NCBI GenBank assembly: GCA_022564055.1
Contig: JADFMD010000003.1
Span: 1-64,000 of the forward strand
DNA length: 64,000 nucleotides
Direction of reading: 5' to 3'
From: Gemmatimonadota bacterium
GTDB lineage: Bacteria > Gemmatimonadota > Gemmatimonadetes > Longimicrobiales > Gaopeijiaceae
In this document: piece by piece, positions 62,911-63,091 of the stretch
Layout: every line of letters begins with the position of its first letter
Numbering within the stretch: position 1 is the first letter of the stretch
Notes under the pieces: generated by a model
What the model was told of the DNA's origin: nothing
Seen by the model: only the letters and a program-made list of their open reading frames with translations
Database searches by the model: none
Made by a program: the position numbers and the translations under genes

Positions 62911-62939
62911 AAAAAAAGCCACCGAATGTCTCCGGTGGC
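62911..62939 (-). terminator. First terminator downstream of Cys-leader 1
   Basis: Minus strand GCCACCGGA-GACA-TTCGGTGGC followed by TTTTTTT. Confidence 0.85.
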
Positions 62940-62965
62940 GTTTCAGGAATTCTCGTCGCGTATAG

Positions 62966-63037
62966 CTATACGACGTCTCCCCGACACCCCACCGGGCTCG
63001 GACAAGAACATCGACAACAACAACGCTTGAGCATCAT
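62966..63037 (-). CDS. Cys-rich leader peptide 1
   Basis: ATG ATG CTC AAG CGT TGT TGT TGT CGA TGT TCT TGT CCG AGC CCG GTG GGG TGT CGG GGA GAC GTC GTA TAG = MMLKRCCCRCSCPSPVGCRGDVV; AGGA about 12 nt upstream. Confidence 0.8.
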   Translation of the reverse strand: MMLKRCCCRCSCPSPVGCRGDVV

Positions 63038-63091
63038 GAACCGCTTCCTTTTACAACACATCCGCTTTCTCACGCATCCTTCCTACGAACA

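Follow-up and report, generated by a model that had tools for sequence, protein, structure and literature searches.

A candidate cysteine-responsive attenuator with serial leader-terminator units upstream of cysH in Gemmatimonadota

Background

Is the short cysteine (Cys)-rich open reading frame (ORF) that stands, together with a terminator, before the cysH operon of a Gemmatimonadota bacterium a regulatory leader, and by what mechanism would it act? The DNA under study is a stretch of 64,000 nucleotides (nt), referred to here as the window, i.e., positions 1 to 64,000 of contig JADFMD010000003.1 (assembly GCA_022564055.1), whose closest named relatives are metagenome-assembled genomes (MAGs) of the Gemmatimonadetes/Longimicrobiales. 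An earlier reading of the same DNA (the original prediction) had proposed a Cys-responsive attenuator upstream of cysH-sir-cbiX-cobA/hemD, by analogy with the polycysteine leaders of mycobacteria. We propose, with a probability of roughly 85%, that the region encodes a cysteine-responsive, ribosome-mediated transcription attenuator of this operon, an assignment that draws on sequence comparison and on RNA folding models.

Results

Leader 1 and terminators T1 and T2

The first unit of the locus contains the following elements:

63037-62966, minus strand: leader peptide 1 ORF, ATGATGCTCAAGCGTTGTTGTTGTCGATGTTCTTGTCCGAGCCCGGTGGGGTGTCGGGGAGACGTCGTATAG, encoding MMLKRCCCRCSCPSPVGCRGDVV with 6 Cys
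62995-62989, minus strand: leader half of antiterminator 1, CCGGTGG, the exact complement of CCACCGG (62938-62932) in the T1 5' arm
62939-62918, minus strand: T1 hairpin, GCCACCGGA-GACA-TTCGGTGGC, -16.3 kcal/mol
62917-62911, minus strand: U-tract of T1, read from the sequence as T7
62887-62855, minus strand: T2 hairpin and U-tract, with a 5' arm, GGCCACCGGG, that repeats the T1 5' arm

The leader ORF is present base for base as first described and T1 with its U-tract (62939-62911) stands unchanged, while the peptide contains six Cys residues and not the seven counted originally. The pairing claimed between CCGGTGG and CCACCGG is exact; the duplex of leader 1 with the T1 arm has a dG of -15.4, and 2% of shuffled sequences did equally well. 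T2 lies beyond the interval first annotated, and its 5' arm GGCCACCGGG can pair with the T1 3' arm (62926-62918) once the latter is released. In three congeners the core DNA of leader 1 is identical, and so are the T2 5' arm and the T's that follow; the T2 3' arm varies among them and leaves an A of the 5' arm mismatched within T2's own stem, which suggests, as judged from the alignment, that this arm is conserved for something other than T2. The unit therefore has the parts expected of an attenuator: a short ORF rich in Cys codons, a terminator before the first gene, and an antiterminator that excludes it.

Such a combination is rare in the window. Of its 656 short ORFs on both strands (10-60 amino acids (aa)), only three are Cys-rich; terminator-like sites number 18 over the two strands, and under a strict rule a Cys-rich short ORF followed by a strong terminator was found at this single place on either strand. 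An Rfam scan of the window gave no match to riboswitches, T-boxes or leaders at the gathering score. A pattern search of the source genome for further Cys-run leaders, in which part of the hits were inspected, yielded one unconvincing candidate besides the cysH locus. At L111 of this same genome (G000 contig 106, 13168-13269), a short ORF, MGFCCCRYCPTCCFWVTELLAISRGQPRQESAC, is accompanied by a poor terminator-like hairpin and is a possible second Cys leader.

Recurrence of Cys leaders upstream of cysH

Since short ORFs are common, as are complementary 7-mers in GC-rich DNA, an unrelated short ORF might have come to lie beside an ordinary terminator by chance. When cysH loci of the class were searched with a strict automated rule, 29 of 42 had a Cys-run leader with a terminator upstream of cysH on the sense strand, compared with none of the 42 on the antisense strand and none in any of five shuffles (0/42 each time). 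Chance is refuted by this test at the level of recurrence and, with the uniqueness of the arrangement in the window, we consider such an origin barely credible for the locus as well. A looser rule combined with inspection by eye raised the count of Cys leader-terminator units to 35/42. In the same family as the window (f1), each of the 14 cysH loci for which the upstream region is available has a Cys-run leader in the corresponding position, followed by a strong terminator (a fifteenth, G025, lies at a contig edge and is left out of this count), examples of the leaders being MNTLGSMLLSNSRGCCCCRQAPGDRSALPSG, MIRTACCCALCCCQTIPSEGRSGRRAA, and MSQITAMCCAMCCCETPRGRGGSGRRRA; among the stretches inspected in other families, the numbers were 13/13 (f6), 5/7 (f3), and 3/8 (f7). 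Some genomes of f3 and f7 have the leader several kb away, at the front of a gene or operon that precedes cysH, and there the link between leader and cysH is less direct. Outside the class, the regions before cysH gave no Cys leader in the loci covered, which came from two genomes of a different class within the phylum, from Solirubrobacteraceae (two loci) and from a cyanobacterium (one locus).

Within Cys runs of the CCAMCCC or CCALCCC type, TGT and TGC are exchanged synonymously among relatives, which is expected if the peptide is translated and indicates that the peptide itself is conserved, beyond its DNA. Cys codons, whose conservation the original prediction required, recur across the class. 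The peptide could in principle be a functional small protein, such as a metal-binding peptide, a redox sensor or a peptide precursor, with the terminator incidental, and the dense Cys motifs, with CC-X2-CC patterns in some leaders, are compatible with this. From family to family, however, the peptides resemble one another only in their Cys runs, not over their whole length; a terminator and genes of sulfate assimilation follow them, and an element of the leader complements the terminator arm. A small-protein role is for these reasons very improbable.

Several loci of the survey have features of their own. At L028 (G113) and L032 (G144), the ATG of the leader upstream of cysH follows a -10 hexamer by about 8-9 nt, and judging by this spacing the mRNA may be leaderless, or nearly so, like the polycysteine ORFs of mycobacteria. 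L061 (G054) has two different Cys-rich leader-terminator units at -3085 and -2345 relative to cysH, about 600 nt apart and upstream of a sir-cysH operon. At L062 and L064 (G052 and G151), Cys leaders and their terminators stand some 5 kb before cysH; the ORF that follows the leader in G151 resembles a TauE/SafE-type permease, as judged from its sequence, which suggests a wider Cys-attenuator regulon.

Pairing of leaders with their own terminator arms

At most loci, pairing of the distal leader with the terminator 5' arm is best for a duplex that starts soon after the Cys run. Few of these duplexes are significant singly; jointly they are. The pairing energies of leaders with their own arms sum to -587 kcal/mol, versus -513 +/- 16 kcal/mol with the arms of other loci, and the own-arm sum was equaled in 0 of 20000 permutations (p<5e-5; some loci are related and the true p is less extreme). 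The pairing elements differ by family (CCGGTGG, GGCCGTGGC, GGGGCCGGGGC, CGGGGCGGGTG, and others) and complementarity is kept, the pattern of changing sequence with lasting complementarity that a conserved pairing predicts.

These results bear on the possibility that the Cys leaders work chiefly at the level of translation or via Rho, as has been inferred for the polycysteine leaders of mycobacteria, with the hairpins secondary. Cys leaders of mycobacteria lack terminators and are described as translational attenuators, and the second leader of congener G003 stops just short of cysH, no terminator intervening. Against this stand the strong intrinsic terminators, which follow at a near-constant distance in almost every leader-bearing locus of the class (leader stop to hairpin mostly 22-38 nt), and the complementarity of leaders to the terminator 5' arm; a translational or Rho-dependent mode of action appears unlikely, though it is the most plausible of the alternatives to attenuation at terminators.

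A second leader-terminator unit

Downstream of T2 and beyond the interval of the original prediction, a second unit was found:

62760-62683, minus strand: leader peptide 2, MTQQTGLCWCCCTVTPREGRVPTSR, 4 Cys
62709-62702, minus strand: leader half of antiterminator 2, GAGGGGCG, the exact complement of CGCCCCTC (62653-62646)
62658-62627, minus strand: terminator T3 with T8, -13.8 kcal/mol

Of the three congeners compared, only the window locus has a complete leader 2 with T3. In G003, between T2 and cysH (L004/L015), a leader-2 homologue, MTPKLAMCCCRFGSQSWKTAC, stops 22 nt before cysH with no terminator; it has either decayed by deletion or acts on translation. G056, which belongs to another genus, has two Cys leader-terminator units in a row, about 100 nt apart.

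Folding as a function of ribosome position

The RNA was folded with a ribosome at successive codons, using an untuned model in which a fixed footprint of 27 nt is kept unpaired (15 nt upstream and 12 nt from the first base of the A-site codon). With the RNA through T2, the computed probabilities (P) of T1 and T2 are about 0 when the A site is on codons 5-11 of leader 1, and at least 0.90 from codon 13 on; codon 12 is the final Cys codon of the run, as it is in leader 2. With the RNA only to T1, the switch point is the same and the profile noisier, codons 5 and 7 still favoring T1. For leader 2, P(T3) stays below 0.2 at most A-site positions as far as codon 12, with 0.46 at codon 11, then rises to about 0.95 at codon 13 and remains there except at codon 16 (0.74). 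When the sequence that separates the Cys run from the hairpin was shuffled, a comparable switch was reached in 0/120 sequences for L1-T1-T2, 1/120 for L1-T1, and 1/150 for L2-T3. The model also attributes the loss of both terminators, with the ribosome on the Cys run, to pairing of the T1 3' arm with the T2 5' arm.

Both leaders of the window thus show, in the model, dependence on ribosome position, and the position-dependent switch is a computed property only. Across the other loci, a kinetic proxy that considers pairing before the 3' arm is made leaned in the expected direction, with more in 20 loci and less in 7 (Wilcoxon p=0.015, the loci not being independent). Modeling therefore supports the attenuator strongly for the window locus and moderately for the family. 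The antiterminator of the original prediction is now backed by exact complementarity, own-arm preference and a folding switch, and its regulatory reading gains support from the tests of conservation, antiterminator and operon.

Proposed mechanism

When Cys-tRNA is plentiful, the ribosome would pass the Cys codons and cover CCGGTGG, and T1 and then T2 would form, halting RNA polymerase. With Cys-tRNA in short supply, the ribosome would stall on the Cys run and CCGGTGG would be free to pair with the T1 5' arm. The freed T1 3' arm, TTCGGTGGC, would then pair with the T2 5' arm (GCCACCGGG) in a relay that opens both terminators. Leader 2 and T3 would act likewise, through GAGGGGCG:CGCCCCTC, as a second checkpoint. 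The ORFs, hairpins, complementarities and class-wide recurrence are directly evident in the DNA; we infer translation, termination, the cysteine response in cells, the relay and the use of both checkpoints.

Several observations weigh against this mechanism or parts of it. Equilibrium folding of the RNA through T2 with no ribosome prefers the antiterminator state, and the off state would accordingly depend on translation or on T1 forming first. Of the two congeners, G002 switches partially in equilibrium folding and G003 not at all, and the relay is weaker in both; at other loci, where the terminators are very stable, the equilibrium probability of the terminator barely changes. The L2:T3 complementarity is by itself not significant (p=0.31), G002 has neither leader 2 nor T3, and G003 keeps a related leader 2 with no T3. 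A consensus promoter scan found none at leader 1, where the candidate -10 is weak, and the source genome is a draft MAG, 87% complete.

Some of these points favor a narrower account in which the attenuator is real and the T2 relay and/or L2-T3 is nonfunctional, T2 serving as a back-up and L2-T3 being a decaying duplicate. This account competes with the serial part of the proposal, not with its core. It is favored by the loss or truncation of L2-T3 in two congeners and by the G003 model; it is opposed by the T2 5' arm, which is invariant despite the mismatch that its A makes in T2's own stem, as fits selection for pairing with GGUGG, by an L2-T3 switch as sharp as that of leader 1, and by the two closely spaced units of G056. 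We rate the narrower account as a serious contender at somewhat less than even odds. That the relay and both stages are functional, as in the serial attenuator proposed here, is held tentatively, at a little under an even chance.

Start region of leader 1 and the regulated operon

Upstream of leader 1, two candidate signals were identified:

63119-63092, minus strand: candidate sigma-70-like promoter (TTGACA 63119-63114, 16 nt, TAGCGT 63097-63092)
63049-63044, minus strand: candidate Shine-Dalgarno sequence of leader 1, AGGAAG, read from the sequence

The ATGATG start and the preceding AGGA are invariant in three congeners, in which TTGACAGGG and TTAGCGTTGT of the promoter region are also conserved; the promoter assignment is that of a candidate. 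The frame of leader 1 is also open upstream to a GTG at 63073. This GTG was rejected as the main start, the extension not being conserved and G003 having an in-frame TAA there.

The genes downstream of T3 are as follows:

62572-61874, minus strand: cysH, (phospho)adenosine phosphosulfate ((P)APS) reductase, the first structural gene (PF01507, E 8.7e-49)
61813-59501, minus strand: sulfite reductase (PF01077 and PF03460)
59504-58869, minus strand: ORF of 211 aa between sir and cbiX, no Pfam match
58850-57981, minus strand: cbiX-like chelatase, siroheme branch (PF01903)
58230-56482, minus strand: cobA/hemD fusion, siroheme branch (PF00590 and PF02602)

The Pfam matches bear out the gene assignments made originally, and the function of the operon is sulfate reduction with supply of the siroheme cofactor. 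The 211-aa ORF is a candidate for a new participant in siroheme synthesis or in the assimilatory reduction of sulfite. No ATP sulfurylase gene (PF01747) was detected in the draft genome. A MATE-family transporter gene (PF01554; 63504-64000, plus strand) is divergent from the sulfur operon.

Discussion

The locus provides a candidate RNA switch through which sulfate assimilation would respond to cysteine, in a phylum for which genetic tools are scarce, and its recurrence across families permits comparative work on the origin of Cys-codon attenuators. The serial form raises the question of whether stacked attenuators sharpen the response or lower leakage. The fullest form of the proposal, i.e., a relay and a serial Cys re-check that filter a single signal, together with a class-wide Gemmatimonadota family of cysH/sulfur attenuators, falls just short of an even chance in our estimate.

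In the classical trp, his, and leu attenuators, control codons of a leader peptide govern mutually exclusive antiterminator and terminator structures. The window differs from these in that Cys is the amino acid that would be sensed and in that its units stand in series with a repeated terminator arm. In the mgtCBR leader of Salmonella two stages read different signals, whereas each leader of the window has a Cys run and the two would sense one and the same amino acid. The mgtCBR leader RNA likewise holds two leader ORFs, with attenuators in tandem (PMC3641672).

The Rhodobacterales element uORFC-8-2, located upstream of cysS, consists of a short ORF with tandem Cys codons and an intrinsic terminator, and attenuation by Cys-tRNA has been proposed for it (PMC8632094). 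With a Cys-codon ORF followed by an intrinsic terminator, it is mechanistically closer to the window than the mycobacterial leaders are. It differs in its gene, in having two Cys codons at positions 14-15, in being a single unit and in belonging to another bacterial group; the window unit, upstream of cysH and with longer Cys runs, falls outside its description.

The polycysteine small ORFs of mycobacteria resemble the window leaders as Cys-run, cysteine-responsive leaders upstream of cysteine or sulfur operons, and this part of the analogy drawn originally stands. The part that concerns mechanism does not carry over: where mycobacterial cys leaders were predicted, they are without recognizable terminators (PMC1262725), and they are described as translational attenuation (PMC13236596, citing Canestrari 2020, which PMC9094748 cites too). 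The mycobacterial leaders are leaderless and no conserved terminator was found for them, whereas the window has intrinsic terminators with complementary leader elements; its leader 1 has sequence before it that includes a conserved AGGA, and the terminators come after it.

We found no report of a leader-peptide attenuator in Gemmatimonadota in the open-access literature, which does not prove absence. The kind of mechanism proposed here is known; the new elements are its occurrence in this phylum, its association with cysH and related sulfur genes across the class, and a serial arrangement in which a terminator arm is repeated.
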